The notes under the pieces: model-generated | Database searches by the model: none | Told to the model about the DNA's origin: nothing | Seen by the model: only the letters and a program-made list of their open reading frames with translations | Assembly: GCA_903822435.1 (NCBI GenBank) | Contig: CAIJPE010000226.1 | Coordinates: 1 to 40,500 of the forward strand | Direction of reading: 5' to 3' | DNA from: an uncultured beta proteobacterium | GTDB lineage: Bacteria > Pseudomonadota > Gammaproteobacteria > Burkholderiales > Burkholderiaceae_C | Length of the DNA stretch: 40,500 bases | Position numbers and translations under genes: made by a program | Part shown: one piece after another, positions 1,224-32,342 of the stretch | How positions within the stretch are numbered: the first letter of the stretch is position 1 | Layout: every line of letters starts with the position of its first letter

Positions 1224-1699
<476 letters not shown>

Positions 1700-1703
<4 letters not shown>

Positions 1704-4048: not shown

Positions 4049-4070
4049 GCCTGCGGCCTGGCGCGGCGGC

Positions 4071-5297: not shown

Positions 5298-5310
5298 CGG
5301 CGTCTGTCGG

Positions 5311-6225: not shown

Positions 6226-6322
6226 GTCGTTGTGGGGGTGTCGCGATCGGCAAGCCTGCAAATGGAAACGCCGCACGCGTGTGCGGCGTTTCCAGGTTCA
6301 AGTTTGCCGGAAATTGCGAAAA

Positions 6323-7108: not shown

Positions 7109-7126
7109 GGGGAATCCTTGTTGATG

Positions 7127-9478
<2,352 letters not shown>

Positions 9479-9492
9479 GGGTACTGCTCCGG

Positions 9493-9963
9493 TTAGGCGG
9501 TCATGGCCGCGGCGCCCTGCTGGACGGCCTTGACGATGTTCTGGTAGCCCGTGCAGCGGCAGAAGTTGCCTTCCAGCGCTTCGCGGATCTTGCCTTCGCT
9601 GCTGCAGTCGTGGTTCTTCACCAGGTCGACCGCGCTCATGACCATACCCGGGGTGCAGAAGCCGCACTGCAGGCCATGGCACTGGTTGAAGGCGGCCTGC
9701 ATCGGGTGCATGGCGCCGTCGGCGGCGGCCAGCCCTTCGATGGTGGTGATCGAAGCCCCGGCGGCCTGCACGGCCAGCATCGAGCAGGCCTTCACGGCCG
9801 CGCCGTTGAGGTGGATGGTGCAGGCGCCGCACTGGCCCGTGTCGCAGCCCGAGTGGGTGCCGGTCAGGCGCAGGTGCTCGCGGATGAACTCCACCAGCAG
9901 CGTCTGTGGCGCGACGTCGCGTGAGACGGCGGCGCCGTTGACGGTCAGAGTAAGTAGGGCCAT
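9493..9963 (-). CDS. coxS: Molybdenum hydroxylase small subunit, 2x[2Fe-2S] (CoxS-like)
   Basis: This 156-residue iron-sulfur subunit is the first gene of the minus-strand operon coxS-coxL-coxM-coxD-coxE. The plant-type cluster is GCDTGQCGACTI plus the Cys in KACSMLAVQ. The second cluster is CGFCTPGMVM and LEGNFCRCTGY. ATG 9963 is preceded by a clear Shine-Dalgarno (AAGGAG read on the minus strand, about 9976-9981). The open frame upstream to 10110 encodes a Cys/Arg-rich stretch unlike the family. The promoter should lie in 9964-10154, where I see only a weak TATCCT-like -10. The protein closely resembles the + strand small subunit at 1224-1703, suggesting an old duplication or two related enzymes. 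Confidence 0.93.
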   Translation of the reverse strand: MALLTLTVNGAAVSRDVAPQTLLVEFIREHLRLTGTHSGCDTGQCGACTIHLNGAAVKACSMLAVQAAGASITTIEGLAAADGAMHPMQAAFNQCHGLQCGFCTPGMVMSAVDLVKNHDCSSEGKIREALEGNFCRCTGYQNIVKAVQQGAAAMTA

Positions 9964-10154
9964 GTCTTCCGATCTCCTTGGGGTGGGCGGCAGCCTGCGG
10001 GCGTGCCCAGCGTCAGTGGGTTGCATCCATGCACCCGAGAACCTCCGGCAGCAGCAGGCCGGATGCCGTCGAGAGCAGCGCAGGCGAGGATAGGCTTCCC
10101 ATGCTGCCACGCATCAGGGAAACCGAGGATTCATGCGGGTCGGCCGGTGGCCGA

Positions 10155-10811
10155 TCAGTCGTGCGAATGTGGAGCACGCCACCCGGCGCGCAGATCCAGT
10201 GTCTCGGATTTGCGCACCACGGGCTCGTAATCCATGTCCCCGAAATCCGCGGCGTCCAGGTGCAGGTAATCCGCCGACCGCTCGCCGGGCAGCGGCCAGA
10301 CGGCGGGCGCCGCGGGAAACTGCGCCACGAGCCGGATGCGCGTGAGCGTGCCGTCGGCCGAGCGGCGCTCCAGGTGCAGCGGCAAATCGAGGCGGCGGCT
10401 CCAGCCCACGCGCTGCCGGCTGCCGGCGGCCGCGGGCTCCTGCGGGTCGACGAAGCACGACAGCACCATCCAGTCGGGCCGGACATTCAACGTGGCCAGC
10501 TCACCGGGGCTGTAGTCCACGACCTGCCGGTCGGCGTGGAAGACGCGCTGAAAGCCGATGCGCCCGGCCGCGTCGCGGTTCCAGATCTCGTCCACCTCGC
10601 CCTTGAGCAGGGCCACCTGCCGGGCGTCGCGGATGAAGGTCCAGGTCTGCTCGCGCACAGGTGTCGCGGTGCCGGCCGGCGGGGTCACCCGCACCTGGAA
10701 GCGGGCGGCCAGCGGCGCCGCGCCGGGCTCGCAGCGCCCCGTGGGGCCCGCCGCCAGCGCCGAACCCGCCATCAGGGCTGCAGCCACCGCCGCCGCCAGG
10801 CTAGAAGCCAT
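10155..10811 (-). CDS. Exported hypothetical protein downstream of alkaline phosphatase
   Basis: I do not recognise this 218-residue protein. Its N-terminus, MASSLAAAVAAALMAGSALAAG, is a plausible Sec signal peptide with cleavage after ALA, so it probably acts in the periplasm. The mature part mixes beta-strand-like segments (TWTFIRDARQVALLKGEVDEIW) with several Trp and Asp residues and only two cysteines. Its start overlaps the last 11 bases of the alkaline phosphatase gene, so the two are probably co-translated and functionally linked, for example as an accessory periplasmic factor. That link is inference from position only. The 190 bp between it and coxS (9964-10154) hold no other gene. 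Confidence 0.7.
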   Translation of the reverse strand: MASSLAAAVAAALMAGSALAAGPTGRCEPGAAPLAARFQVRVTPPAGTATPVREQTWTFIRDARQVALLKGEVDEIWNRDAAGRIGFQRVFHADRQVVDYSPGELATLNVRPDWMVLSCFVDPQEPAAAGSRQRVGWSRRLDLPLHLERRSADGTLTRIRLVAQFPAAPAVWPLPGERSADYLHLDAADFGDMDYEPVVRKSETLDLRAGWRAPHSHD

Positions 10812-12405
10812 AGGCCTCTCGCATGACGTGGAAGATCCAGTTCTGCTCCATCGAGCCGCGCACGAGATAGGCCTTCGGGCCGCGGGCGTAGATGGCGACG
10901 TCCTCGCCGCCGTGGGTTTCCGAGGCCAGCGGCACCAGCGCTTCCTGCAGGTATTCGAGCTGGGTGGTGTCCACGCTGCTCAGGTTCGGGCGCGCACCGG
11001 GCCGCGCACCAGGGCCGTTGGCATAGGCCAGCGTGGTGAAGGGCAGCTTGTGGCTGTCCAGGGTGGGCGCCAGGGCCCCGCCATCCCTGTTGGGCACTTC
11101 CTGCACCAGGCCCAGGATGTTGTTGCCGCGGCTCGGATAGCCGGCGATGGTGAAGGTGTGGCTGTGGTCGGCCGTCACCACGATCAGGGTGTCGTCCAGC
11201 TGGCCGGCGGCCTGCAGCACCTCCACCGTGCGGCGGATGGCGTTGGAGAACTCGATGGTCTCGATCAGCGCGCGCCGGGCGTTGCCGGCGTGGTGGGCAT
11301 GGTCGATGCGGCCGCCCTCCACGTGCAGGAAGAAGCCCTTGGGGTCCTTCATCAGCATGCGCAGCGCCTTGTCGGTCATCTCGGTGAGCGAGGGTTCGCC
11401 GGCAGGGTCGGTCGATCGGTCGGCCTCGTATTGCACGTGCGAAGGCTCGAACAGACCCAGCAGGTGGTGGGTCTTGGCCGGGTCGACGGCATCGAACTGG
11501 GCCTTGTTCCAGACATAGGCGGCCTGCGTGCCGCCGCGCGTGGCGATCCACTCCTCGGTCAGGTTGCGGCCGTCCAGGCGGCGGCCCTTCTGCGTGGGGT
11601 ACTCCGGGTCGAAGACGTCGGCGCCGCCCTGCTTGGCCGGCATGAAGTAGGTTCGGCCCCCGCCCAGGGCCACCTTCAGGCTGCTGCGCACGGCGGGGGA
11701 GAGCTCGATCAGTTGGCGGGCGATGTCCTTGACAGCGCCCGGCGCGCCGCGGCAAGGTGCGCCGGTGTTGATGTCGGTGGCCGAGAGGTTGGAGTCGGCC
11801 TCCCAGTCGCGCACGGCGGTGTGGGCATACAGGGCGCCGGGCGTGGCGTGCGTGATCCGCGCCGTGGTGACGATGCCGGTGGCCTTGCCGTTCTCGGCCG
11901 CCAGCTCCAGGATGCTCTTGACCTTCTTGGCCTCGACCACCGTGGCGTTGCACTCGCCGCGCGACGTGGTGTGGTTGACCGAGAGCATGCCTTCTCGCGT
12001 CTTGTAGCCGGTGGAGATGGCCGTCATCGTCGGCGCCGAGTCCGAAGTCTGCTGATCCCACGAGTAGGTCTTGGACAGCGCGGTGTAGGGGAAGTTGTCG
12101 AAGGACAGCCGGTTCTCTTCGCCCGGCTTGCCCTGGAGTTGCCCTTCGAGGATGCGCGCGGCGGTGATGGTGGAGATGCCCATGCCGTCACCCACGAACA
12201 GGATCACATTGCGCGCCCGGCGCGCATCGTCCTTCTGCGCCTTGCTGCGCTCGATGAACGCAGTGCCGGCGTTGTACCAGTCGGCCACGGACTCCGGGCC
12301 CCGCACGGCCGGCGCGGGGGCAGCGGCCGTCTGGGCCTGTGCCAGGCCGGCCAGCGCCAGGGCCGCGGAACCCAGTGCGAGCCCGGCTGCGGTGGAACGG
12401 ATCAT
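10801..12405 (-). CDS. phoA: Alkaline phosphatase, PhoA family
   Basis: The 534-residue precursor is a periplasmic phosphomonoesterase that releases phosphate from organic esters. The signal peptide is MIRSTAAGLALGSAALALAG, ending AQAQ. Metal and catalytic residues of the PhoA superfamily are visible: the Asp in LFVGDGMG, the phosphorylated Ser in TSDSAPTMTA, EGGRIDHAHHAGN, TADHSHTF and the late His in SETHGGEDVAIYARGP. ATG 12405 is chosen because GGAG precedes it by about six bases and it starts the signal peptide; the ATG at 12423 lacks this. A -10-like TATAGT lies at 12444-12449 on the minus strand. It stands at the edge of a group of lipid-phosphorus genes, suggesting phosphate-limitation control. 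It is longer than E. coli PhoA (471), as in many proteobacterial relatives. Confidence 0.92.
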   Translation of the reverse strand: MIRSTAAGLALGSAALALAGLAQAQTAAAPAPAVRGPESVADWYNAGTAFIERSKAQKDDARRARNVILFVGDGMGISTITAARILEGQLQGKPGEENRLSFDNFPYTALSKTYSWDQQTSDSAPTMTAISTGYKTREGMLSVNHTTSRGECNATVVEAKKVKSILELAAENGKATGIVTTARITHATPGALYAHTAVRDWEADSNLSATDINTGAPCRGAPGAVKDIARQLIELSPAVRSSLKVALGGGRTYFMPAKQGGADVFDPEYPTQKGRRLDGRNLTEEWIATRGGTQAAYVWNKAQFDAVDPAKTHHLLGLFEPSHVQYEADRSTDPAGEPSLTEMTDKALRMLMKDPKGFFLHVEGGRIDHAHHAGNARRALIETIEFSNAIRRTVEVLQAAGQLDDTLIVVTADHSHTFTIAGYPSRGNNILGLVQEVPNRDGGALAPTLDSHKLPFTTLAYANGPGARPGARPNLSSVDTTQLEYLQEALVPLASETHGGEDVAIYARGPKAYLVRGSMEQNWIFHVMREAYGF

Positions 12406-12443
12406 GATGGACTCCAGAGTCATTGCCGATTTGCGACGGCGGC

Positions 12444-12449
12444 ACTATA
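12444..12449 (-). promoter_or_regulatory. Possible -10 element for phoA
   Basis: Read on the minus strand this is TATAGT, a 4/6 match to TATAAT, in the only AT-richer stretch of the phoA upstream region. A transcript from here would have a leader of roughly 30 nt before ATG 12405. I see no TTGACA-like -35 at the usual spacing, which fits an activator-dependent promoter but proves nothing. Confidence 0.3.
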
Positions 12450-12497
12450 GGCGTCCCCACTGGCTCTGCGGTGTTTCAGGCGCCCGTGCGGGGCGGG

Positions 12498-12526
12498 CGT
12501 CACCGAACCGTCGCCGTGCCGTCATG
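12498..12526 (+). promoter_or_regulatory. 11-bp-periodic GTCA repeats, possible PhoB site before lplT
   Basis: Three hexamers, CGTCAC (12498), CGTCGC (12509) and CGTCAT (12520), are spaced exactly 11 bp apart on the + strand, 52 bp upstream of the LplT-like start. PhoB binds direct repeats with this period (consensus CTGTCAT-N4-CTGTCAT). The match to the full consensus is only moderate in this GC-rich DNA, so this is suggestive. It lies between two divergent genes, both plausible Pho targets. Confidence 0.35.
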
Positions 12527-12577
12527 GGCCTGGCATGCGGTTGCGGCCCAATCGGGTGGTCGTCACTGCACCACGAT

Positions 12578-13807
12578 ATGCCGCCTGGCTTCCACTTGCT
12601 GATCGCGGCCCAGTTCGTATCTGCGCTGTCCGACAACGCGCTGCTCATCGTGGCCATCGGCTGGCTGCAGCAGCAGGGCGATCCCGCGTGGTGGGCACCC
12701 ATGCTGAAGTTCAACTTCACGATCGCCTACGTGGTGTTGGCGCCGTTCGTGGGGCCGCTGGCCGACGCCTTCATCAAGGCCCGCCTGATGATGGCCATGA
12801 ATGCCCTGAAGGTGGTGGGTGTGCTGGCGCTGCTGGCCGGGCTGAGCCCCTTGCTGGCCTTTGCGATCATCGGCGTCGGGGCGGCGGCCTACGCTCCGGC
12901 CAAGTACGGGTTGGTGACCGAGATGGTGCCCGCCCGCAAGCTGGTGGCGGCCAACGGCTGGATCGAGGTCTCGACAGTGTGCGCCGTGCTGCTGGGCTGC
13001 GTGCTCGGAGGTGCGCTGGTCAGCCCCTGGGCGGCGTCCGTGGCAGCGCGCTGCCTGCCTGGATTGACGCCCCTGCAAGCGGCCACCGGCCTGCTGTTGG
13101 CGGGCTATGCCTGCGCGGCCGCCTTGAATCGCGGCATTCCCGACAGCGGCGCGCGCTACCGCCGTGCTCACCGCGCACCGCGCGCGTTGTGGCGCTCGTT
13201 CTGGCGGGCCCAGCGCCGCTTGTGGCGGGATGCCGAAGGCGGCTTGTCGATGGCCGTGACCACCTTGTTCTGGGGCGTGGCCGCCGTCTTGCAATTCGCC
13301 GTGCTGGGCTGGGCGGAGAGCCGCCTGGGCCTGCCGCTGGAGCGCGCCGCCTACCTGCAGGCCGTGGTGGCCGTGGGCATCGTGGCGGGTGCGGCGTTGG
13401 CGGGCCGATGGGTCGGGCTGGCGCGGGCCACTGCGGTGCTGCCGCTGGGCATCCTGATGGGCCTGCTCGTGCCGATGGTGGCATGGGTCGACCATTGGCT
13501 CGTGGCGCTGCCACTGCTGGTGGCGGTGGGCGCGTTGGGTGGCGCCCTGGTCGTACCCCTGAATGCCCTGCTGCAGCACCGGGGCCACGAGCTGCTCACC
13601 GCAGGCCGGTCCATCGCCGTGCAGAACTTCAACGAGAACCTCAGCGTGCTGGTGATGCTGGCGGTCTATTCGGCCTTGCTGGCTGCAAAGGCCGACATCC
13701 GCGCGATCATGGCGGGCCTGGGTGCACTCGTCGCGGCCGTGGTGGCCCTGCTGTGGCATCGGCAGCGGCAGCAACTTTCAGGCAGGCCCGCGGCGCGGCG
13801 CGCCTGA
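12578..13807 (+). CDS. lplT: LplT-like lysophospholipid transporter (MFS)
   Basis: This 409-residue inner-membrane protein of the major facilitator superfamily is rich in hydrophobic helices, about 12 by eye. It begins MPPGFHLLIAAQFVSALSDN, very like the LplT start (PGFxxxxAAQFxSxLADN). Other LplT-like segments are VGPLADAFIKARLM, GAAAYAPAKYGLVTE and NALLQHRGHELLTAGRSIAV. LplT flips lysophospholipids, chiefly lyso-PE, inward for re-acylation by Aas. No aas gene lies nearby. ATG 12578 matches the family start; the open frame extending upstream runs antisense to phoA. It is transcribed divergently from phoA across 172 bp. With neighbouring lipid genes it would fit recycling of lipids during remodelling, which is inference. 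Confidence 0.85.
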   Translation: MPPGFHLLIAAQFVSALSDNALLIVAIGWLQQQGDPAWWAPMLKFNFTIAYVVLAPFVGPLADAFIKARLMMAMNALKVVGVLALLAGLSPLLAFAIIGVGAAAYAPAKYGLVTEMVPARKLVAANGWIEVSTVCAVLLGCVLGGALVSPWAASVAARCLPGLTPLQAATGLLLAGYACAAALNRGIPDSGARYRRAHRAPRALWRSFWRAQRRLWRDAEGGLSMAVTTLFWGVAAVLQFAVLGWAESRLGLPLERAAYLQAVVAVGIVAGAALAGRWVGLARATAVLPLGILMGLLVPMVAWVDHWLVALPLLVAVGALGGALVVPLNALLQHRGHELLTAGRSIAVQNFNENLSVLVMLAVYSALLAAKADIRAIMAGLGALVAAVVALLWHRQRQQLSGRPAARRA

Positions 13808-13831
13808 CGCAAGCGGGGCAGTGCCGCCAGC

Positions 13832-15049
13832 TCAGGCGCTGGGCAACAACGGCCGCAGGGCAGGGCGCGGCACCGCGCCCGGGCTGATCAGGGCGGCGGC
13901 GTATTCGGCCTCGATCGCCTCCAGGATGCGGCCCCAATCCAGGCGGCTCATGTCGGTGCGCGCCCGTGCCCCCAGCGCTCGAGCGGTGGGCAACTGGCCG
14001 GCCAGGCTGCGTGCGGCGTGGCAAAACGCCTGGCTGTCTTCCAGCCGGGCCAAGAGACCGTTTTCACCCGGCGTGATCAGTTGGCCCGCTGCCGCGTGGT
14101 CGAAGGCCACCACGGCCAGGCCACTGGCCATGGCCTCGGGCACCACGTTGCCGAAGGTCTCGGTCATGCTCGGGAACAGGAAGACATCGGCCGATGCATA
14201 GTGCGCCGCGAGGTCTTCTCCGCGCCGAAGCCCGGCGAAGACCGCATTCGGGCAACGCTGCATCAGGCTCTGCCGATCGGGCCCGTCGCCGACGAAGACC
14301 AGCCGCACCTGCGGGTCGATGGCGTGCATGGCCTCCACGGCATCTGCGACGGCACCCAGGTTCTTTTCCGGCGCCAGGCGGCCCACGCACAAGGCCACCA
14401 TGGTGCCCGGGCCCGCACCCCAGCCTGCACGCAAGGTCTCGCTGCGGCGCCGGGGATCGAAGAGCCTCGTATCCACGCCGCGGGCCACCACCCGCAGGCG
14501 CTGGAAGCCGACATCGGCCAGCTCGCGGCGAAGGGCCTCGGTGGGCACCATCGTGCAGGCCGTGCGGTTGTGGAATTTGCGCAGATAGGCCATCACCGGC
14601 GTGCGCAGCCACCCTACGCCGTAGTGGCGGCTGTAGGCGTGGAAGTTCGTGCGGAAGTCGCTGACCACAGGCAGCTTGAGGTGGGTTGCGGCCTGCAGCG
14701 CAGACCAGCCCAGCGGCCCTTCGGTGACGATGTGCACCACGTCTGGCCGCTGGGCCGACCACAGCCGGATCAGCGCCCGCTTGGAGGGCAGGCCCATCTT
14801 CAATTGAGGGTAGCGGGGAATGGGCAGCCCGCGCATCAACACCTGGACCAAGCCGCCGGCGTCCGCATCGGCCCCCAGGTCCTGTCGATCCTGGCGCGGG
14901 CGCACGAGCTGCAATTCGTGGCCCCGTCCGCGCAGACCTTCGACCACGCGCGCGATGGTGGCGGCGACCCCGTTCACCTCAGGAGGATAGGTTTCGGTGA
15001 CCACGGCAACCCGCAGTGACCTGCGGATGGGCAGGTAGTCGTCGACCAT
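13832..15049 (-). CDS. GT4-family glycosyltransferase, probable glycolipid synthase
   Basis: The 405-residue protein is a GT-B fold glycosyltransferase (group 1/GT4). The N-terminal acceptor domain starts LRVAVVTETYPPEVNGVA. The C-terminal nucleotide-sugar domain has CVGRLAPEKNLGAV, FVGDGPDR and the EX7E-type signature in PSMTETFGNVVPEAMASG. It resembles MgtA-type enzymes that glycosylate diacylglycerol or glucuronosyl-diacylglycerol. In phosphate-starved proteobacteria a PlcP phospholipase supplies diacylglycerol to a glycosyltransferase, and a PlcP-like gene lies 3.5 kb away. A strong PhoB-like box (15099-15116) points toward this gene. Starts at 15049 and 15076 are both possible. I prefer 15049 because GGAAG precedes it and a promoter built on the box would start transcription near 15077. 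The lipid acceptor is inferred. Confidence 0.85.
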   Translation of the reverse strand: MVDDYLPIRRSLRVAVVTETYPPEVNGVAATIARVVEGLRGRGHELQLVRPRQDRQDLGADADAGGLVQVLMRGLPIPRYPQLKMGLPSKRALIRLWSAQRPDVVHIVTEGPLGWSALQAATHLKLPVVSDFRTNFHAYSRHYGVGWLRTPVMAYLRKFHNRTACTMVPTEALRRELADVGFQRLRVVARGVDTRLFDPRRRSETLRAGWGAGPGTMVALCVGRLAPEKNLGAVADAVEAMHAIDPQVRLVFVGDGPDRQSLMQRCPNAVFAGLRRGEDLAAHYASADVFLFPSMTETFGNVVPEAMASGLAVVAFDHAAAGQLITPGENGLLARLEDSQAFCHAARSLAGQLPTARALGARARTDMSRLDWGRILEAIEAEYAAALISPGAVPRPALRPLLPSA

Positions 15050-15098
15050 GATGGAGTCGTCTTCCGGTGTCACCATCCGGAAATCATCGCGAAGCCCC

Positions 15099-15116
15099 GC
15101 AACAGTTCGATGACAG
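15099..15116 (-). promoter_or_regulatory. PhoB-like box upstream of the glycosyltransferase
   Basis: The minus strand reads CTGTCAT-CGAA-CTGTTGC, a 7+4+7 direct repeat matching the PhoB consensus CTGTCAT-N4-CTGTCAT at 11 of 14 positions, with the first half perfect. Ten bases further downstream is GATGAT, a possible -10 at the spacing usual for PhoB-activated promoters. Transcription would then start close to 15077 and run into the glycosyltransferase at 15049. This is the best Pho-box candidate in the window. Confidence 0.55.
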
Positions 15117-15153
15117 CGCTCGCCCGTCGTGCAAAAGCCGCAGCGACATGCGG

Positions 15154-15182
15154 GTGTCATGCAGGCTTCACGGCATCTTCAT
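15154..15182 (+). promoter_or_regulatory. Tandem PhoB-like half-sites upstream of the Mpo1-like gene
   Basis: On the + strand TGTCAT (15155), CTTCAC (15166) and CTTCAT (15177) recur with exact 11-bp spacing. The first extends to GTGTCAT, a 6/7 match to the Pho half-site; the other two keep mainly the TCA(T/C) core. The array points toward the gene starting at 15260. Together with the box at 15189-15206 it forms an extended Pho-like region, on the opposite strand from the box serving the glycosyltransferase. Confidence 0.45.
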
Positions 15183-15188
15183 GCGCCG

Positions 15189-15206
15189 CGTTCACGATTC
15201 CGTCAC
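15189..15206 (+). promoter_or_regulatory. Second PhoB-like box upstream of the Mpo1-like gene
   Basis: The + strand reads CGTTCAC-GATT-CCGTCAC, another 7+4+7 direct repeat with TTCAC and GTCAC cores. It ends 53 bp before the GTG start at 15260. Alone the match is moderate. Its closeness to the array at 15154-15182 and to the opposing box at 15099-15116 makes chance less likely. Confidence 0.4.
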
Positions 15207-15259
15207 GTGAATCGGCCGGGTGCGCCCTTTCGCGCAAGACCCGAACCAAGGAGCCATCG

Positions 15260-15868
15260 GTGAACGAATTTCTTCAAGCCTTGAAGACCCAGCGCTGGGA
15301 CGACCATCGCTACTACCACCACAGCCGCATCAACCAGTCGCTGCACTTCATCAGCGCCTTGAGCTTCATTGCCGCGTACGCGCTGCTGTTCGTCGATCCG
15401 GCCAGCGCCGCGCTGGTGGCCTGGGGGGTTTCGATGACCACGCGGCAAGCGGGCCACTTCTTCTTCGAGCCCAAGGGCTACGACGACGTGAACCAGGCCA
15501 CGCACGAGCACAAGGAAGAGATCAAGGTGGGCTACAACTTGCGCCGCAAGGTGGTGTTGATGGCCGCCTGGGCGCTGGCGCCAGCGGCCTTGTGGCTGTC
15601 GCCGTCGATGGGCGGCCTGATCGAGCCCGCGGTGGGCTGGCAGGGCTACCTGCACGACGTGGGCATCGCTTGGCTGGCCCTGGGTATCGGCGGCGTGCTG
15701 TTCCGTACCGTGCACCTGTTCTTCCTGTTCGACGTGCGGACCGGGCTGGTGTGGGCCACCAAGATCCTGACCGACCCGTTCCACGACGCCATGATCTATT
15801 GGCGCGCCCCGCTGCACCTGCTGCGCGGCGAGTTGATCGATCCGATGCACCACGCCCGCCGTTCGTGA
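15260..15868 (+). CDS. Integral membrane protein, Mpo1/DUF962-like
   Basis: This 202-residue membrane protein has about four hydrophobic helices, including HFISALSFIAAYALLFVD and VVLMAAWALAPAALWL. It is histidine-rich in a pattern resembling Mpo1/DUF962: YHHSRINQSLHF near residue 20 and QAGHFFFEPKGYDD near residue 70, comparable to the YHxxxxNxxxH and QxxGHxxFE segments. Yeast Mpo1 is an iron-dependent dioxygenase that shortens 2-hydroxy fatty acids. Similarity here is at motif level and the protein may be a distinct membrane family. The start is GTG at 15260, set by a perfect AAGGAG at 15248-15253. Pho-like boxes lie upstream, and a strong terminator follows, so it is probably monocistronic. 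Its location suggests acyl-chain or membrane adaptation. Confidence 0.7.
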   Translation: MNEFLQALKTQRWDDHRYYHHSRINQSLHFISALSFIAAYALLFVDPASAALVAWGVSMTTRQAGHFFFEPKGYDDVNQATHEHKEEIKVGYNLRRKVVLMAAWALAPAALWLSPSMGGLIEPAVGWQGYLHDVGIAWLALGIGGVLFRTVHLFFLFDVRTGLVWATKILTDPFHDAMIYWRAPLHLLRGELIDPMHHARRS

Positions 15869-15880
15869 CAGGCCCATCGA

Positions 15881-15913
15881 GAGCCCGCGCCTTGCAGCGC
15901 GGGCTCTTTTTTT
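15881..15913 (+). terminator. Rho-independent terminator
   Basis: A perfect 10-bp stem, GAGCCCGCGC (15881-15890) with its complement at 15897-15906, encloses a six-base loop and is followed by seven T residues (15907-15913). It starts 12 bp after the stop at 15868 and serves the + strand. The minus-strand aminotransferase gene ends at 15922 just beyond it. On that strand the stem is not followed by a T-run, so it should terminate in one direction only. Confidence 0.92.
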
Positions 15914-15921
15914 CTTGCTGC

Positions 15922-17571
15922 TCAGAAGCGGTGTTTCAGCATCTCCTTGAGCACGTGGCGGCGGATCGTCTTGTTGGTGATGCTGCCTTCGTGCCACCAC
16001 CAGCCATCGGCCTTCATGGCCTTTGCTGCAGCCACGAAGCGCGTGCACACCGCGTCGAAGTCGGCCTGCGTGTAATTCAGGCTGAATACCATGCGCCCGG
16101 TTCCCACCCAAGACAGGGCCAGGCCCTGCTCGCGCAGGTAGAACTGCAGCATCCAGTTGTAGCGCGAGGGCTGCGTGTAATACACCGTCCAGATGGTCGA
16201 CAGGTTGGCCACCTGCACCGGTGTACCGGCCTCCGACAGTGCTGCATTCAGTTGCACCGCACGGCGGTTCCACGTGTCGTCCAGCCCGTCGTACAGCGAA
16301 CGCACGGGCTCGGTCTGCAGCCGCTCGAGAAAGACCTGCATCGCGCCCATCACGTAGGGATGCGAATTGAAGGTGCCGCGGGCAAAGCAGATATCGGCCG
16401 GCCGGTCTTCGCGAAAGCGCTTCATCAGTGCGCGCTGGCCGCACACTGCGCCCACGGGGAAGCCACCACCCAGCGTCTTGCCGTAGGTGACCATGTCGGC
16501 TTTGACGCCGAAGTATTCCTGCGCGCCACCCGCGGCCAACCGGAAGCCCACGAAGACTTCATCGAAGATCAGCACGATGCCGCGCTGGGTGCATACCTCG
16601 CGGAGTTGACGCAGCCAGGCGCTGTAGGCCTCGCGGTCGAAGCGGGCCCGCCGGCCGCTGTCGATCAGGGCGCTGTCGCCGGGTGCCGAGGCATTGGGGT
16701 GCAGGGCCTGCAGCGGGTTGACCAGCACGCAGGCGATGTCGTTGCGGCTGCGCAGCACCTTCAGCGTGCGCTCATCCATTTCCTTGAGCGTGTAGGTGTG
16801 CCCGGGTGGCAGCGGATTGCCCGGGCCGGGCTGCACGTCTTCCCACCAGCCGTGGTAAGCGCCCGAGAAGCGCACCAGGTACTTCTTGCGCGTGTGGTAC
16901 CGCGCCAGCCGCACGGCCTGCATCACGGCTTCGGTGCCGCTCATGTGGAAGCTCACCTCATCCTGGCCGGCGATGCGCTGGAGTTGTTCGACGTTCCAGG
17001 CCACCGCCGGGTGGTAGCTGCCCAGCAAGGGGCCCATGTCGGCCGCGCGGGCGCTGCCTTCGGCCATGCAGGCCTTGTAGAAGTCGTTGCCGAACACGTT
17101 GACGCCGTAGGAGCCCGTCAGGTCGTAGAAGGTCTGGCCATCCAGGTCGGTGATGGTGACGCCATCCGTGCGTTGCACGAAGGCGCCCACCGACAGGTGC
17201 TGCCGGAGGTACGCGCTGTATTGGAAGGGCACGCGGTAGGCGCCGGTGAACTGCAGGTCCGAGATGGTCTCCCGTGCCTGCCGGGTCAGTGCGATGGACT
17301 TCTCGTGACGGCTGTTGAGCTGGGCGGCCAGGCGCGCAAAGCCTTGCCGACGCCGGGCCTGAAGCTCGGCAGGCGCACCGTCCGAGGCGAAGAAGGCCGT
17401 CTCGTCGTAGGTGTAGCCCGGTACGAACCGCGCTACGCGCTTGGCCATGCGGGAGTGTCCGGTCAGGGACGGGTGCTTGGCGCGCGAAAGCGCCAGCCGC
17501 TGCATCGCCAGGGGCCAGGCGGCCGCGAGGCCCGCCACCGTCAGGGCTGTCAGTGCAAGAGGTTCGATCAT
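15922..17571 (-). CDS. Membrane-anchored class III aminotransferase (GSAM-like)
   Basis: This 549-residue PLP enzyme resembles glutamate-1-semialdehyde aminomutase and other class III aminotransferases. The PLP lysine is Lys365 in DMVTYGKTLGGGFPVGAV. Other fold motifs are SGTEAVMQAVRLAR, RFSGAYHGWWED, LIFDEVFVGFR and FARGTFNSHPYVMGA. It is about 120 residues longer than GSAM (about 430). The extension begins with a hydrophobic segment (residues 4-28) that should anchor it in the membrane, followed by a charged helical part. The C-terminus ends with basic KEMLKHRF. It is unlikely to be the heme-pathway HemL. It faces a phosphatidylserine-decarboxylase-family gene across only 53 bp, which suggests action on an amino-lipid or its head group. 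No direct precedent is known to me. The start could lie slightly downstream, since the Shine-Dalgarno is weak. Confidence 0.85.
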   Translation of the reverse strand: MIEPLALTALTVAGLAAAWPLAMQRLALSRAKHPSLTGHSRMAKRVARFVPGYTYDETAFFASDGAPAELQARRRQGFARLAAQLNSRHEKSIALTRQARETISDLQFTGAYRVPFQYSAYLRQHLSVGAFVQRTDGVTITDLDGQTFYDLTGSYGVNVFGNDFYKACMAEGSARAADMGPLLGSYHPAVAWNVEQLQRIAGQDEVSFHMSGTEAVMQAVRLARYHTRKKYLVRFSGAYHGWWEDVQPGPGNPLPPGHTYTLKEMDERTLKVLRSRNDIACVLVNPLQALHPNASAPGDSALIDSGRRARFDREAYSAWLRQLREVCTQRGIVLIFDEVFVGFRLAAGGAQEYFGVKADMVTYGKTLGGGFPVGAVCGQRALMKRFREDRPADICFARGTFNSHPYVMGAMQVFLERLQTEPVRSLYDGLDDTWNRRAVQLNAALSEAGTPVQVANLSTIWTVYYTQPSRYNWMLQFYLREQGLALSWVGTGRMVFSLNYTQADFDAVCTRFVAAAKAMKADGWWWHEGSITNKTIRRHVLKEMLKHRF

Positions 17572-17602
17572 GGTCCGTTGGGAGGATGGAATGCCTGTTT
17601 GT

Positions 17603-17620
17603 ATGTCTGGACGTTGACAC
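17603..17620 (-). promoter_or_regulatory. Weak PhoB-like repeat between aminotransferase and psd genes
   Basis: Read on the minus strand, GTGTCAA-CGTC-CAGACAT gives two half-sites each matching CTGTCAT at 5 of 7 positions with the correct 4-base spacer, 31 bp upstream of the aminotransferase start. The 53-bp divergent spacer must hold control signals for both genes. The match is weak and could be chance; it is listed because three neighbouring intergenic regions show the same pattern. Confidence 0.25.
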
Positions 17621-17624
17621 CGCT

Positions 17625-18506
17625 ATGAAAACTCAAATGCCCTTTGCACAATGGCGGGATCGCCTGCTCTTGCAGGAAGACCTCAATTTCCTGCTGACCA
17701 ACCGCATCCCGCGCCTGGCCGTCACGCGCTTCATGGGCTGGTTCAGCAAGATCCGCAACCCCTGGGTGTGCCGCGCGTCGATCGCCGTGTGGCGGCTGTT
17801 CACCGACCTGGATCTGAGCGACGCGCGCAAGACCCGCTTCGACAGCCTGCACGATTGCTTCACCCGCGAGCTGGCTCCGGGCGCCCGGGCCGTCGATGAA
17901 CGCGAAGAAGCGATCGCCAGCCCCTGCGACGCGATCGTGGGCGCCTGCGGTGTGGTCAGCGCCGGCAGCGTGCTGCAGGCCAAGGGCTTTCCGTACCGCA
18001 TCGTCGATCTCTTCGGGCAGGCGGGCCGGGCCGCGCCGTTCGAAGGCGGCACCTACGTGACCCTGCGCCTCACGTCCAGCATGTACCACCGCTTTCACGC
18101 GCCGCACGACGGCACGATCGAGCACGTCACCTACATCGGCGGCGATACCTACAACGTCAACCCGATTGCATTGAAGCGCATCGAAGGCCTGTTCTGCCGC
18201 AACGAGAGGGCCGTGATCCGCATGCGGCTGAAGAACGGGCAGCCGCTGGCGATGGTGCCGGTGGCGGCCATCCTGGTGGCCAGCATCCGGCTGCACTTCC
18301 TGAACGTGCTGTTGCACGTGCGCTGGCCCGGGCCCAACGAAATGCCCTGCAGCGAAGTCGTGGGCAAGGGGCAGGAACTGGGCTGGTTCGAGCACGGCTC
18401 GACCATCATCGTGTTCGCTCCGCCGGGCTTTGCCCTGGCCGAGGGCATCGTCGCGGGGCGCCGCCTGCGCATGGGCGAAATGCTCTTGCGCATGCCGATG
18501 GGGTGA
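17625..18506 (+). CDS. psd: Phosphatidylserine decarboxylase family protein
   Basis: This 293-residue member of the Psd family is made as a proenzyme that cleaves itself to form a pyruvoyl group. The normal reaction converts phosphatidylserine to phosphatidylethanolamine at the inner membrane. The predicted Asp-His-Ser triad is Asp102 (SPCDAIVGACG), the His in YHRFHAPHDG (about 158) and Ser259 in HGST (E. coli has LGST), where cleavage would yield the pyruvoyl alpha chain. LRLTSSMYHRFH and YNVNPIALKRIEGLFCRNER are also typical. I use ATG 17625; 17586 and 17637 are in-frame alternatives, and the Shine-Dalgarno is weak for all. Whether this is the housekeeping Psd or a paralog for another amino-lipid cannot be told here. 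Its context (aminotransferase, plcP-like gene 52 bp downstream) leaves the second option open. Confidence 0.87.
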   Translation: MKTQMPFAQWRDRLLLQEDLNFLLTNRIPRLAVTRFMGWFSKIRNPWVCRASIAVWRLFTDLDLSDARKTRFDSLHDCFTRELAPGARAVDEREEAIASPCDAIVGACGVVSAGSVLQAKGFPYRIVDLFGQAGRAAPFEGGTYVTLRLTSSMYHRFHAPHDGTIEHVTYIGGDTYNVNPIALKRIEGLFCRNERAVIRMRLKNGQPLAMVPVAAILVASIRLHFLNVLLHVRWPGPNEMPCSEVVGKGQELGWFEHGSTIIVFAPPGFALAEGIVAGRRLRMGEMLLRMPMG

Positions 18507-18514
18507 GCGGCCTG

Positions 18515-18532
18515 GTGTCACAACACCGTCTT
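18515..18532 (+). promoter_or_regulatory. PhoB-like repeat upstream of the plcP-like gene
   Basis: The + strand reads GTGTCAC-AACA-CCGTCTT, a 7+4+7 repeat with a good first and a fair second half-site, 26 bp before ATG 18559. A 7-bp hairpin with a 3-base loop (18530-18546, CTTGCCG and its complement) overlaps its end. The hairpin has no T-run, so it is not a terminator. The gene may be read from its own promoter as well as from psd. Confidence 0.35.
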
Positions 18533-18558
18533 GCCGCACCGGCAAGATCAGGCTCACG

Positions 18559-19419
18559 ATGCGACGCGACGACCTGCCTGCTGCCGCCGATGACGCCCCC
18601 GCCGCGGCAGACGTGCTGCGTGTGCGCACAGTCTGGATCTCCGACCTGCACCTGGGTACGCCGGGCTGCCAGGCCACCGAATTGCTGGCCTTCCTGCGTG
18701 TCGTCGAGTGCGACACGCTCTATCTGGTGGGTGACATCATCGACGGCTGGCAACTGCGTCGGCAGTGGTACTGGCCACAGGCCCACAACGACGTGGTGCA
18801 GAAGCTCCTGCGCAAGGCCCGAAAGGGCACGCGGGTCGTCTTCGTGCCCGGCAACCACGACGAGTTCGCGCGCAAGTACCTGGGCCACAACTTCGGTGGC
18901 GTGGACGTGGTCGAGGAGTGCATCCACGAGACGGCGGACGGACGCAAGCTTTGGATCACGCACGGCGACCTGTTCGACGGCGTCATCCAGTGCGCGAAAT
19001 GGCTGGCCTACGTGGGCGACTGGGCCTATGAACTGACGCTGCGCGTCAACCGCCATTTCAATTCGATGCGCGCCCGGCTGGGCCTGCCCTACTGGAGCCT
19101 GTCGCGCTACCTCAAGCTCAAGGTCAAGCGGGCCGTCAGCTACGTCGGCGACTTCGAAGCCGCCGTGGCCCGAGAGGCCCGCTCACGCGGCGTGCAAGGC
19201 GTGGTGTGCGGCCACATCCACCATGCCGAAATCCGGCAGATCGAAGGTGTGCTGTACTGCAACGACGGTGACTGGGTCGAGAGCCTGACCGCCCTGCTGG
19301 AACATCCCGACGGGCGGCTGGAAATCATGGACTGGAGCGAACGCGTGAAGGCCTATGAACTGGCCCGCACTTCCTCGATCGTCGTCACGCCGGCCAGCAC
19401 CTTCTCGATGCCATCCTGA
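18559..19419 (+). CDS. plcP: PlcP-like metallophosphoesterase (COG2908, probable phospholipase C)
   Basis: The 286-residue calcineurin-like phosphoesterase has a complete dimetal site: DLHLGT (Asp29, His31), GDIIDGW (Asp59), GNHDE (Asn99, His100), THGD (His135) and GHIHHAE. Such proteins are often auto-annotated as LpxH (UDP-2,3-diacylglucosamine diphosphatase). The segments WISDLHLGTPGCQA, YWPQAHNDVV, GLPYWSLSRYLK and NDGDWVES match my recollection of the PlcP group, including S. meliloti PlcP, which hydrolyses phosphatidylcholine and other phospholipids to diacylglycerol when phosphate is scarce. It is longer than E. coli LpxH (240). Neighbouring psd, glycosyltransferase and alkaline phosphatase genes support the PlcP reading. 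Its last 67 bases overlap the end of the convergent ATPase gene. PlcP rather than LpxH is a judgement from motifs and context. Confidence 0.82.
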   Translation: MRRDDLPAAADDAPAAADVLRVRTVWISDLHLGTPGCQATELLAFLRVVECDTLYLVGDIIDGWQLRRQWYWPQAHNDVVQKLLRKARKGTRVVFVPGNHDEFARKYLGHNFGGVDVVEECIHETADGRKLWITHGDLFDGVIQCAKWLAYVGDWAYELTLRVNRHFNSMRARLGLPYWSLSRYLKLKVKRAVSYVGDFEAAVAREARSRGVQGVVCGHIHHAEIRQIEGVLYCNDGDWVESLTALLEHPDGRLEIMDWSERVKAYELARTSSIVVTPASTFSMPS

Positions 19420-21836
19420 CGCAGGCTGCGCATGCCGTCGCCCAGGGCGTGCTTTTGAAGGTCGTCGGCGCGGGCGCCGGTCTGGATGAGGTGGCGCAGG
19501 CCCCGGCTGATCATCATCAATTCGTGGATGCCGGCGCGCCCGCGGAAGCCGGTCCCGCTGCAGTTCTCACAGCCCGCACCCTTGTACAAGGTCACGCGGC
19601 CCTCGGTGCCGAAGCGGCGGCGCCATTCGGCCAGCACGTCGTCTGCCTTGGGAGCGCGGTCAGCGCCCTCCATCACGTGCATGTAGTCGTGCAGCAGTTC
19701 TTCCACTTCCTCGGGGCTGGCTTCGTGGCCCGTGCGGCAGCGCTGGCACACGCGGCGCACCAGCCGTTGGGCCAGCACGCCCAGCAGCGCGTCGGCGAAG
19801 TTGAAGGGGTCCATGCCCATGTCCAGCAGACGGGTCACCGTCTCGGGGGCGCTGTTGGTGTGCAGGGTGGACAGCACCAGGTGGCCGGTGAGCGAGGCCT
19901 CGATGGCCACGTGCGCAGTCTCTTCGTCGCGGATTTCACCCACCATGATCACGTCGGGATCGGCGCGCAGGAAGGAACGCAGCGCTCGCGCGAAGGTCCA
20001 CTCGATGCGCGGGTTGACCTGCACCTGGCGCAGGCCGGCCTGCGTGATCTCGACGGGGTCTTCGGCCGTCCAGATCTTGCGTTCGGGCGTGTTGATGCTG
20101 CTCAGAAGCGAGTGCAGCGTCGTGGTCTTGCCCGAACCGGTCGGACCTACGCAGAGCAGCATGCCATAGGGCCGCTGGGCGGCGGTGCGAAGGCGTTCCA
20201 GGTTGTTCGGTGACATCCCCAGGTTGTCCAGCGGGATGGGTTTGCTGGAGGCCAGCAGCCGCAGCACGGCGTCTTCCAGGCCGCCCTGGGTCGGGATGGT
20301 CGCAACGCGCAATTCGAGCCGGACACCCTGGACGAACTTGGCGAAGTTGATCTTGCCGTCCTGCGGCTTTCGGCGCTCGCTGATGTCCAGGTCGCACATG
20401 ATCTTCAGGCGGGCGATCAGGGCGTTGCGGTAGTTGTGCGGCAGTTCCATGTACGGCCGCATCTGGCCGTCCTTTCGGAAGCGCACGCGCACCTTTTCCT
20501 TGCCGGGCTGGCATTCGACGTGAATGTCCGACACATTCTGGTTGTGGGCCTCCATGATCATCGAGTTGATCAGCCGCACCAGCGTGTTGTCGCTCTGCTC
20601 GATGCCGTTGTCTTCGTGGTCGTCGGGTTGCTGCGCGTCCACCTTCTCCATGCTGGCCAGCAGCTTGCCGGCATCGCCGGGGTCGAACTCGATCGGCGTG
20701 CTGGCGTCCGGACTGATGCCGTTCGGGAAGGCCGAGCTGCCCGCCTTGGCGTAGGCGCGGTCGATGGCACCTTGCAACACGCCCGCTCTTGCCAGCACGG
20801 GCACGATCTTGCATTGGGCTGCGAACTCGAGTTCGTCGATCTTGCCGCGGTTGGAAGGGTCTTCCACCGCCACGACCAGGCGGCCGGCCCTGAGCATCAG
20901 CGGCAGGGCCGGCACGCGCGTGGCCACGGCATAGGGCAGCCGGGCGACGGATTCGATGTCGGCCGGGAACTGCATCACGTCCACCAGCGGGTAGCCCATC
21001 TTCCGGGCCAGCGCCGTTTGCAGGTCGGCCCGGGAAACCAGGCCCTTCTTCACCAGGAGTTCACCCAGCGGCACGCTGCGGTCTGCGCGCTGCTGCACCA
21101 GCGCGTCTTCCAGTTGGGCCTCGCTGATGAAGCCCAGGGCCGTGAGCGCCTGCCCGATGCGCACCATCGGCATCTTGGCCTGGTGCTCGATGGCGCCCGT
21201 CAGCTCATCGGGCGTGATCAGCTGCCGCACGACCAGGATGTCGCCCAGCTTGCGCATGCGCAGGGCTTCCTGCTCGGCCAGCGCTTCCTGGATCTGGTCG
21301 GGGGTGGCCGAGTGCTGGTCGATCAAGGTCTGGCCGATGCGGGGCCCGATCTCCACGCGCTTGTAGGCGGTGCGAGGCACGAACCAGCGGCGCAGGCCGT
21401 CGCCTTCCGTGGGTTCGAACAGGAAGACGCCGGCGGCGTCCTCGCGGTGCCCGACGGTCAGTCCGCTCCAGTTCGGGGCGGCCTTGAATTCGATGGAAAA
21501 CGGCACCGCCGCCTGCAGTACGCTGAGATCCTGCGAGTCCGGCGGGGGCGGCACCGCTTTCAAGGGCTGCGCGAGGTGCAGCCGCCTGAATTGCGTGAAG
21601 CGCAAGGGCAGCGGCTTGCGCGGTGTGCTCATGCGCAGCTGCAGCAACCCCTGGGCCGGGTCGAAGAAGGACAGGTGACCATGGATGGCGTGTCCGTTCA
21701 GCACCTCGATCTCCACTTCCAGGGCCTGGGCAACGGGCGAGGGCGCCGGATAGCCTGGGCGATCCGGTGTGGGCCACGCATAGGCTGGCCCCTCCAGGGA
21801 CAGCACCGACAACGGCGGTTGAGACAGATCGGACAT
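19353..21836 (-). CDS. GspE/PilB-family ATPase with tandem MshEN domains
   Basis: This 827-residue secretion/type IV pilus-type ATPase starts at ATG 21836 behind a good GAGGAAAT ribosome site. Residues 1-150 are a variable N-terminal domain. Two MshEN-type modules follow: 165-220 (RIGQTLIDQHSATPDQIQ, KLGDILVVRQLITPDEL) and 226-280 (RIGQALTALGFISEAQLEDA, PLGELLVKKGLVSRADLQ). Such modules bind cyclic di-GMP in MshE. The ATPase core has Walker A GPTGSGKTTT (564-573), an Asp box near DPDVIMVGEIRDEE, the His-box segment STLHTNSAPETVTRLLDMG, and a zinc-type pair CQRC and CENC. No secretin, pseudopilin or PilC gene is next to it. It probably drives a pilus or type II-like machine encoded elsewhere, under c-di-GMP control. 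That is inference. Confidence 0.9.
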   Translation of the reverse strand: MSDLSQPPLSVLSLEGPAYAWPTPDRPGYPAPSPVAQALEVEIEVLNGHAIHGHLSFFDPAQGLLQLRMSTPRKPLPLRFTQFRRLHLAQPLKAVPPPPDSQDLSVLQAAVPFSIEFKAAPNWSGLTVGHREDAAGVFLFEPTEGDGLRRWFVPRTAYKRVEIGPRIGQTLIDQHSATPDQIQEALAEQEALRMRKLGDILVVRQLITPDELTGAIEHQAKMPMVRIGQALTALGFISEAQLEDALVQQRADRSVPLGELLVKKGLVSRADLQTALARKMGYPLVDVMQFPADIESVARLPYAVATRVPALPLMLRAGRLVVAVEDPSNRGKIDELEFAAQCKIVPVLARAGVLQGAIDRAYAKAGSSAFPNGISPDASTPIEFDPGDAGKLLASMEKVDAQQPDDHEDNGIEQSDNTLVRLINSMIMEAHNQNVSDIHVECQPGKEKVRVRFRKDGQMRPYMELPHNYRNALIARLKIMCDLDISERRKPQDGKINFAKFVQGVRLELRVATIPTQGGLEDAVLRLLASSKPIPLDNLGMSPNNLERLRTAAQRPYGMLLCVGPTGSGKTTTLHSLLSSINTPERKIWTAEDPVEITQAGLRQVQVNPRIEWTFARALRSFLRADPDVIMVGEIRDEETAHVAIEASLTGHLVLSTLHTNSAPETVTRLLDMGMDPFNFADALLGVLAQRLVRRVCQRCRTGHEASPEEVEELLHDYMHVMEGADRAPKADDVLAEWRRRFGTEGRVTLYKGAGCENCSGTGFRGRAGIHELMMISRGLRHLIQTGARADDLQKHALGDGMRSLRQDGIEKVLAGVTTIEEVRASS

Positions 21837-22001
21837 GGGATTTCCTCGGAGCGGACACACGGCCACGCTGCACCGATCGTAGGCAACTGCACGGCGAGCG
21901 GCCACAGGAATTGCGGGCGCTTCAGCCGCCAGATCGGCCGAAGCTCTAGCATTGGGCCTGCCCGGTAGGCGTTCAGGCCGGGACTTCCCCGAAAGCGGCG
22001 C

Positions 22002-22940
22002 ATGAACCTGCGATTTGTCGAAGCCTTTCATTGGGTCGTGACGCTCAAGAGCATCTCGCGCGCCGCAGAGAAGCTGCACATCACGCAGTCGGCAATGTCC
22101 AGCCGCATCGCCACCCTGGAAGACGAGTTGGGCGTGCTGCTGCTGGACCGGCGCGACAAGCAGTTCCGCCTGACTGCGGCCGGGCTGCGCTTCCACGGCC
22201 ACGCGCAGCGGCTGCTGAACCTGCACCGCGAGATCCAGGGCGAGATGGGGGCGGCCGGTGCCCAGCCCCGGGCTGCCCTGCTCAGGGTGGGCGCCATCGA
22301 ATCGGTGCTGCATTCGTGGCTGGTGGATTGGCTGCAGCAGATGCGGGCCAGCCACCCGGGCATGTCGCTGGAGCTCACGGTGGAGACCACGCCGGTGCTG
22401 GTCGACCAGGTGCGCCGCGGCGCGCTGGACCTGGCCTTCGCCGCGCTGCCCGCCACCGGCGAGGGGCTGCGCAACCGCGAGCTGCCTAGCATGGAGATGG
22501 TCTTCGTCGGGCACGCCGAACACCACCGCCAGCGCCGCTACGGCATGGCCGAGCTGGCCCGCTTCGAGCTGATGACGTTCCAGCGCGGCTCGCAGCCGTG
22601 GGTCAGCTTGCTGGAGCAGTTCCGCGAGGCCGGCCTGGAACCGCGGGTGCACGCCATCTCGTCGATTTCGGCCATGGTGCAGCTGGTGGAGGCGGGTTTC
22701 GGCGTGGCCACCCTGCCGCGGGCGGCCGTGGCCCGGCTGACGCAGCGGCCGTTGCGCGTGCTGTCGGCCGACACCGCGCTGCAGCGCCTTCCGGTGCACG
22801 CCAGCCACCGCCTGGACCCGTCGTCCACGCTGGCGGCCGGCATCGTCGACGGTTTGCGCTCGGCCATGGGGCCCGAGCCCGCTGCCCGCCGTCGACGCGT
22901 TGCCGCCTTGGGTGCGTCATCGAAAAAGCCGATGACTTGA
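22002..22940 (+). CDS. LysR-family transcriptional regulator
   Basis: The 312-residue LysR regulator has an N-terminal winged helix-turn-helix (residues 1-60: [40 protein letters not shown]) and a periplasmic-binding-protein-like effector domain from about residue 90. It lies 91 bp upstream of the DUF1445 gene on the same strand, at the head of the transport and 5-oxoprolinase genes, so it is the likely local regulator. The effector may be 5-oxoproline or a related amino acid, which is guesswork. An AT-rich palindrome, AAGAA-AC-TTCTT (22943-22954), sits just after its stop and could be an operator. The 165 bp upstream (21837-22001), shared with the divergent ATPase gene, show no clear promoter to me. 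Confidence 0.93.
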
Positions 22941-22942
22941 GA

Positions 22943-22954
22943 AAGAAACTTCTT
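22943..22954. promoter_or_regulatory. AT-rich palindrome before the DUF1445 gene, possible operator
   Basis: AAGAA-AC-TTCTT is a perfect 5-bp inverted repeat in a short AT-rich patch (about 22940-22960) in otherwise very GC-rich DNA. It lies between the LysR gene and the first gene of the presumed target operon. Position and base bias fit a promoter or operator. There is no further evidence. Confidence 0.3.
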
Positions 22955-23031
22955 GTTTGATCAGCCGTGCGGGGCTGCGCAGAATGCACCGCAGCGGTGT
23001 GCCCTGGCGCATCGGTCCAGGAGCCCTTGCG

Positions 23032-23853: not shown

Positions 23854-23882
23854 CCCCCTCCACCCGCCCCAAGGAACGTGTC

Positions 23883-25160: not shown

Positions 25161-25168
25161 CCATCCCC

Positions 25169-25236: not shown

Positions 25237-25274
25237 ACCGCTTGAAGCCAACTGATGGATCCCGGTTCCACGCC

Positions 25275-26141: not shown

Positions 26142-26145
26142 GCCG

Positions 26146-28658: not shown

Positions 28659-32342
<3,684 letters not shown>

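Follow-up and report, generated by a model that had tools for sequence, protein, structure and literature searches.

Three genes at 10155-19419 of a 40.5-kb stretch of DNA from an uncultured beta proteobacterium (hereafter the window: the whole 40,500 nucleotides analysed, 69.6% G+C, from a genome of 6.07 Mb) form a conserved module and not a chance cluster. They encode a class III aminotransferase (Amt), an Mpo1-like membrane protein (Mpo) and a second Psd-type decarboxylase (Psd). With a probability of about 0.45, just short of even, we propose that this module is controlled by PhoB and makes a phosphorus-free, amine-bearing membrane lipid at low phosphate, likely from diacylglycerol freed by a PlcP-like phosphoesterase. 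An earlier note on this DNA had suggested phosphate-starvation lipid remodelling at this place; the gene content, the recurring Pho-box-like repeats and the neighbouring genes of known phosphorus-free-lipid families speak for that suggestion. Its further idea of an additional amino-modified lipid holds as far as sequence goes, in that the aminotransferase, the Mpo1-like protein and Psd are a conserved module, the product itself being a prediction. The gene list of the note was correct, with all named genes found by profile scores, and the reading frames of the listed genes are all backed by codon-position G+C. The core genes are as follows.

15260-15868, + strand: Mpo1-like integral membrane protein, module core; 202 amino acids (aa), PF06127 20.6 bits

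15922-17571, - strand: class III aminotransferase with a predicted membrane anchor, module core; 549 aa, PF00202

17625-18506, + strand: second Psd-type pyruvoyl decarboxylase, module core; 293 aa, PF02666 191.5 bits, TIGR00163 147.5 (cut-off 111.75)

The loci of relatives, which are mutually related, were gathered through similarity to Amt. Six came from 185 genomes sampled across the class (seven matches including the window's own genome), 80 are the best from named public genomes, where more exist, and 16 came from 398 genomes sampled across the phylum. Complete genes no more than 5 kb from amt were counted in the 102 loci: psd in 97, mpo in 97, both in 93. The neighbourhood comparison proposed in the earlier note therefore finds the set kept together, and these counts rule out a chance neighbourhood. 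Among the first 86 loci, tblastn matches anywhere in the locus number 83 for psd, 82 for mpo, 73 for gt4, 35 for plcP, 31 for lplT and 3 for phoA. The module is present in named isolates, among them the cultivable Roseateles saccharophilus DSM 654 (L084) and Curvibacter gracilis ATCC BAA-807 (L043). Same-strand runs of the order amt-GT4-psd-mpo occur in L022, L133, L134, L138-L140 and L144, and a Sphingomonas parapaucimobilis plasmid carries psd-amt-mpo-methyltransferase. In the phylum-wide sample 27 of the 398 genomes matched, two of them (G329, G473) in frames of 2600-2800 aa that resemble polyketide synthase (PKS) domains; among 18 of the other 25 whose neighbourhoods were read, psd, amt and mpo occur together in 17, the last being a 4.4-kb contig.

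Nine of the 102 loci are without psd or mpo. Seven of these (L046, L054, L072, L081, L100, L102, L105) lie near contig ends, with 0.02-1.3 kb left on the side in question. One of the other two, L023, is without psd and belongs to a btaA-linked clade described below. The second, L021, reads plcP-gt4-amt-mpo with no psd, with 9.7 kb of sequence to one side and 1.0 kb to the other. In its genome (G085) BtaA is lacking, and the single PF02666 gene, which is of the housekeeping type, sits on a different contig; psd is probably absent from this genome, unless it was lost in an assembly gap.

Pho-box-like repeats were scored as tandem heptamers with an 11-nucleotide period against the Escherichia coli Pho-box consensus. 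The following repeats were found in the locus.

12508-12536, + strand: three heptamers with 11-nucleotide spacing, phoA/lplT gap; two-heptamer p=0.003, three-heptamer 0/300 shuffles

15099-15116, - strand: gt4/mpo gap; 0/300 shuffles

15143-15171, + strand: second repeat (three heptamers) of the gt4/mpo gap; three-heptamer p=0.020

17603-17631, - strand: amt/psd gap, over the psd start codon; two-heptamer p=0.053, three-heptamer 0/300 shuffles

18515-18532, + strand: 5' of the PlcP-like gene; two-heptamer p=0.013, three-heptamer p=0.123

The four top sites of the window (12519, 15099, 18515 and 12508) all lie in upstream regions of the locus, and 8 of the 13 sites above threshold fall within 553 of the 40500 bp (binomial 1.5e-12, an optimistic value, as sites partly overlap and the regions were chosen by the analyst). 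The amt/psd region, where the site overlaps the start codon of psd, is borderline with two heptamers, and one convergent control, lplT/gt4 (41 bp), came to p=0.027 at a low score. In relatives, regions at p≤0.05 number 50 of 79 for the divergent amt/psd arrangement and 48 of 57 for the divergent mpo/gt4 arrangement, compared to 2 of 52 and 0 of 6 for the convergent amt/mpo and gt4/lplT controls. These values were obtained with 100 dinucleotide shuffles on regions that include 30 bp of coding sequence per side and that come from related loci; loci skipped for orientation or length number 18 (amt/psd), 19 (mpo/gt4), 45 (amt/mpo) and 20 (gt4/lplT). The repeats noticed earlier in several intergenic regions are thus more than chance, and are over-represented upstream of module genes in the window and in relatives. 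We infer that the module is under PhoB control.

The genes found next to the module in relatives include several from known phosphorus-free-lipid pathways; the neighbour clustering omitted reading frames below 80-90 aa. In one gammaproteobacterial clade, all four loci (L023, L156, L157, L158) contain plcP, btaA, a fusion of amt and mpo, and gt4, with no psd. BtaA matches PF11899 with 369 bits. L023, L156 and L158 each have a called btaB-type gene, and at that place L157 has a methyltransferase match. Three of seven other matching genomes of the same family were read; psd-amt-mpo is found in L160 and L161, and psd-amt in L159, a 3.8-kb contig. The mpo match of L161 (10392-10981, genome G577) is in two pieces and the amt frame contains one TAG, possibly a decaying copy. 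Locus L050 carries psd-amt-mpo-gt4-plcP-btaB-btaA all together. BtaA (PF11899) was not found in the window's genome, in 19 of 20 carriers tested or in the 25 genomes of the phylum sample that carry the module. A mutual exclusion of the module and BtaA was considered and dropped: the absence of overlap between 25 module and 30 BtaA genomes of 398 has a chance probability of 0.13, and L050, with both, contradicts it, leaving the pattern suggestive at most.

OlsB-type genes occur in 16 of the 20 carriers, and in three of these they lie some 10 kb or less from the module. An OlsB-type domain together with an acyltransferase domain, as in OlsF, is encoded in L133, L134 and L020, in the first two as the next gene after the run, and the OlsB type alone is found in L018 and in a cluster of seven loci (L048 tested). 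A GT28 gene resembling monogalactosyldiacylglycerol synthase lies near psd in 13 loci (L026-L029, L031, L034, L041, L060, L091, L094, L097, L098, L132), in several of them between plcP and psd; the copy of L094 scores just above the PF06925 cut-off. All 13 GT28 genes are within 5 kb of amt. In 13 loci (one tested) there is a gene for UDP-glucose dehydrogenase, an enzyme that would provide UDP-glucuronate for a glycosyltransferase. PmtA-like methyltransferase genes accompany the module, within 5 kb of amt, in 12 loci, and also on the Sphingomonas plasmid (Bradyrhizobium, Sphingomonas and kin). A 5'-nucleotidase-type gene near the module in L023, L066, L072, L077, L088, L093 and L102 (the L102 copy tested) is a further sign of phosphorus scavenging.

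Taken together, we infer a lipid product and an order of steps. At phosphate starvation PhoB would switch the module genes on, and the PlcP-like enzyme would free diacylglycerol from phospholipids, part of which the GT4 glycosyltransferase would convert to glycolipid. The Mpo1-like oxygenase would make a carbonyl on a membrane-bound lipid, and Amt, in the same membrane layer, would turn this carbonyl into an amine. Psd would then take off a carboxyl group adjacent to the amine in the head group, and where a PmtA-like enzyme is present, as in Bradyrhizobium, Sphingomonas and kin, it would methylate the head-group amine. The predicted product would replace phosphatidylethanolamine or phosphatidylcholine, a part that betaine lipid plays in other bacteria.

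The role of Psd is the weakest link of this mechanism. Another Psd gene is located elsewhere in the window's genome, and 18 of 20 carrier genomes tested have at least two PF02666 genes. The module protein retains the HGST cleavage motif with its G-S site, the D-H-S triad and His144. In E. coli Psd, Tyr137 and Ser166 are phosphate-contact positions according to PMC7952604, where the family alignment has Arg in 15% at the Tyr137 position. The module Psd has Arg at the former position (98/98) and Asn at the latter (97/98). Other Psd copies of the carrier genomes have Asn at 166 in 8 of 19 and Arg at 137 in 2 of 19, in a comparison that parsed 19 of 21 loci. As other copies also carry Asn or Arg, ordinary phosphatidylserine may be the substrate. 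Arg148/Asn177 had been considered as proof of a phosphate-free substrate; the pair was distinctive against 11 copies, but Asn is found in all eight short-type copies added, and the argument was abandoned.

The second Psd might instead be a phosphatidylserine decarboxylase of the ordinary kind that supplements phosphatidylethanolamine, or phosphatidylcholine together with the PmtA-like enzyme, during turnover, while Amt and Mpo tailor, for example, the acyl chains. The preserved catalytic residues and autocleavage site and the Asn at position 166 in other copies agree with this, as does the partner methyltransferase, whose nearest relative is the phospholipid N-methyltransferase PmtA, even if it scores below the cut-off (161 of 390 bits). 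The absence of Psd from the btaA-linked loci and from L021 also fits. We nevertheless judge this explanation unlikely, because in most carriers the module gene is an extra copy, because more phospholipid has no obvious use at phosphate starvation, and because psd stays so close to amt across the loci.

Amt is labelled in the database as glutamate-1-semialdehyde aminomutase (HemL). This label was rejected, as the protein scores 175.7 bits against the TIGR00713 cut-off of 527.3, and the HemL of the genome, encoded elsewhere, scores 575.4. The structure model of Amt shows a helix at the N-terminus (residues 2-31), and Lys365 (K365) in the YGK motif is invariant across 36 aligned sequences. Among solved families, the mycosubtilin synthase aminotransferase domain (MycA; 6kfm) is nearest: it leads by family profile with 236.2 bits, compared to 154.2 for the next, and ranks first in a Foldseek search with the predicted structure, at 26% identity over the model. 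Next in closeness are glutamate-1-semialdehyde aminomutases (GSAM) and beta-transaminases. MycA and its GSAM and beta-transaminase kin aminate beta-keto or aldehyde groups; the MycA domain itself aminates a beta-ketone bound as an acyl group. Amt differs from MycA in not being a domain of a PKS or a non-ribosomal peptide synthetase: it stands alone as a 549-aa protein with a predicted membrane anchor, or is joined to Mpo in relatives. Nonetheless, Amt could be a MycA-like beta-aminotransferase that provides beta-amino acyl chains for a lipid glycosylated by GT4, either a phosphorus-free glycolipid or a sphingolipid-like one. Profile and fold both point to MycA as the best solved relative, yet the identity is low and Psd is left without a role, which makes this quite improbable.

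Mpo is best started at the GTG at 15260. Its score against PF06127 is below the gathering score of 24, which places the protein outside the family by that cut-off. Across 54 Mpo homologs, PF06127 is the sole Pfam family matched at E≤0.01 in 52, with a best E-value of 1.8e-5. The homologs share invariant His, Asn and GHxxxE residues, which we take to resemble those of yeast Mpo1. The structure model is helical (pLDDT 87.6), and a Foldseek search against the PDB gave no match at E≤0.001. Mpo is thus similar to yeast Mpo1, a 2-hydroxy fatty acid dioxygenase of PF06127, in a weak profile match and in being a small helical membrane protein, and differs from it in its sub-threshold score and its partnership with an aminotransferase.

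In all four btaA-linked loci, of one gammaproteobacterial family, Amt and Mpo form a single open frame of 738-799 aa with no intervening stop. A search with the fusion against 5.8 billion proteins gave 7973 scored relatives. The best 120 of these 7973 are 702-771 aa long, and all 120 contain the YGK, DHxxxHx4Nx2-3H and RQxGHxxxEP motifs in one chain; their fused state was judged by length and motifs. Source names among these 120 include Gammaproteobacteria, Burkholderiales, Candidatus Binatia and a name beginning Candidatus Tecto. The fusion as query matched three of 289 genomes from another class, through the aminotransferase part alone. Because the two proteins are fused in the btaA-linked clade and in the best 120 relatives, their activities probably work in sequence and catalyse linked steps.

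Such linked steps could also run in the catabolic direction, with Amt deaminating amino head groups (of phosphatidylethanolamine, phosphatidylserine or diacylglyceryl-homoserine) and Mpo oxidising the rest, for nitrogen recycling or phosphate release. Aminotransferases are reversible and yeast Mpo1 oxidises 2-hydroxy acids, which speaks for this; the Psd- and BtaA-type neighbours would both yield primary-amine head groups, and the seven loci with 5'-nucleotidase genes are in line with it. The recurrent neighbours named by profiles are mostly biosynthetic (BtaA, OlsB/OlsF-like, GT4, GT28 and UDP-glucose dehydrogenase), however, and we consider catabolism a long shot.

The remaining genes of the locus surround the module.

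13832-15160, - strand: GT4 glycosyltransferase, predicted lipid glycosyltransferase, from profile searches

18559-19419, + strand: PlcP-like metallophosphoesterase, predicted phospholipase C; PF00149 48.2 bits

12578-13807, + strand: LplT lysophospholipid transporter, a frequent neighbour; NF008397 494 bits (cut-off 297)

10801-12423, - strand: PhoA-family alkaline phosphatase, a local neighbour that is not conserved; PF00245 437.7 bits

within 10155-19419: secreted-type protein, judged by eye, with no Pfam or NCBIfam match

In 83 of the 102 loci, GT4 or an N-terminally extended form of it lies no more than 5 kb from amt. The extended form (L022, 10344-13052; L133, L134, L138-L140, L144) has an N-terminal extension of ~500 aa that is PHP-like by eye and has no Pfam match; placed inside the amt-psd-mpo run, it is possibly a phosphoesterase-glycosyltransferase fusion. 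In the window the PlcP-like gene is 3.4 kb distant from GT4, with the core module in between. Its assignment as LpxH was discarded, as LpxH models give 38-46 bits, far below their cut-offs, and a different gene in the genome reaches 194.1 with TIGR01854, above the cut-off. The earlier note had counted LplT and the alkaline phosphatase among the members of the locus. LplT turns out to be a common rather than a constant neighbour (29 of the 102 loci within 5 kb of amt, besides the 31 of 86 above), and the alkaline phosphatase was dropped from the module, its three matches in the 86 loci being weak (29-31% identity).

The note's view of PlcP and a glycosyltransferase as a known phosphate-stress route agrees with published plcP-agt loci (PMC8528852, PMC4796936), and plcP-btaAB and plcP-agt neighbourhoods with Pho boxes are described in PMC4796936, PMC8528852 and PMC9239053. 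That the locus holds just this known pair with unrelated neighbours is scarcely credible, as Amt, Mpo and Psd are more conserved than PlcP and Amt-Mpo is fused throughout one clade.

Several observations weigh against the proposed aminolipid pathway. Psd is partly dispensable, with none in the btaA-linked loci or in L021; its active site is canonical and the Arg/Asn pair is not decisive, so that it may simply make phosphatidylethanolamine. plcP lies within 5 kb of amt in just 24 of the 102 loci, and no GT4 gene is near the module in L141-L143 or on the Sphingomonas plasmid. The match of Mpo to Mpo1 is under the gathering score, and its fold is without a solved relative at the E-value used. Most loci were collected through Amt similarity and are mutually related, and substrate and product are predicted from sequence.

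Comparison with known systems places the module beside three pathways. With PlcP-Agt remodelling (Phaeobacter, SAR11, Pseudomonas aeruginosa, Methylosinus) the locus has in common a PlcP-like phosphoesterase, GT4 and Pho-box-like repeats; by contrast, it adds the conserved aminotransferase, the Mpo1-like protein and a second Psd. The earlier note had set the aminotransferase and Psd outside that route, and in the accessible parts of the published plcP-agt and btaAB accounts none of these, nor Mpo, is named; PMC8528852 contains neither the word aminotransferase nor the word phosphatidylserine. Synthesis of the betaine lipid diacylglyceryl-trimethylhomoserine (DGTS) by BtaA/BtaB is similar in yielding an amine-bearing, phosphorus-free lipid beside plcP, and its genes adjoin the complete module in L050 and, in one clade, the fusion of Amt and Mpo, but the enzymes differ and BtaA is missing from the genomes noted above. 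Ornithine-lipid synthesis by OlsB/OlsF also gives a phosphorus-free aminolipid, and OlsB/OlsF-like genes follow or adjoin the module in several loci, whereas the proteins of the core, all three, come from different families.

A description of the module was not found in the open-access literature, a search limited to open access and no proof of novelty; in the parts available, open-access work on Mpo1/DUF962, on the Pho regulon with a decarboxylase, on Bradyrhizobium methyltransferases and on phosphorus-free aminolipids with an aminotransferase gives no account of it. We hold it as a tentative possibility, with the odds somewhat against it, that the module is an undescribed route in which a membrane-bound aminotransferase-oxygenase pair, sometimes fused, and a repurposed Psd, controlled by PhoB, assemble a phosphate-free lipid that takes the place of phosphatidylethanolamine or phosphatidylcholine in Burkholderiales, rhizobia, sphingomonads and other groups.

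Other parts of the window were also annotated. The region 1224-10110 contains two molybdenum-hydroxylase gene sets (large and [2Fe-2S] subunits, one FAD subunit), plus genes for an AAA protein and for a CoxE-like VWA protein; the style is that of relatives of carbon monoxide dehydrogenase or xanthine dehydrogenase. A frame of 1151 aa on the - strand (19353-22808) contains a type II secretion ATPase domain; its end and that of the PlcP-like gene, convergent to it, overlap by 67 bp. The region 22002-36065 is likely a cluster for 5-oxoproline/hydantoin use, with a LysR regulator, a D-glutamate cyclase, a branched-chain-type ABC transporter, a 1227-aa oxoprolinase fusion and a pyroglutamyl peptidase.

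Phosphorus-poor waters and soils drive bacteria to swap phospholipids for phosphorus-free lipids. A figure legend in PMC4796936 lists uncharacterised aminolipids and one uncharacterised betaine lipid. The conserved, Pho-box-linked module, with its sometimes fused aminotransferase-oxygenase pair, is a direct and testable candidate for the synthesis of such an uncharacterised lipid.

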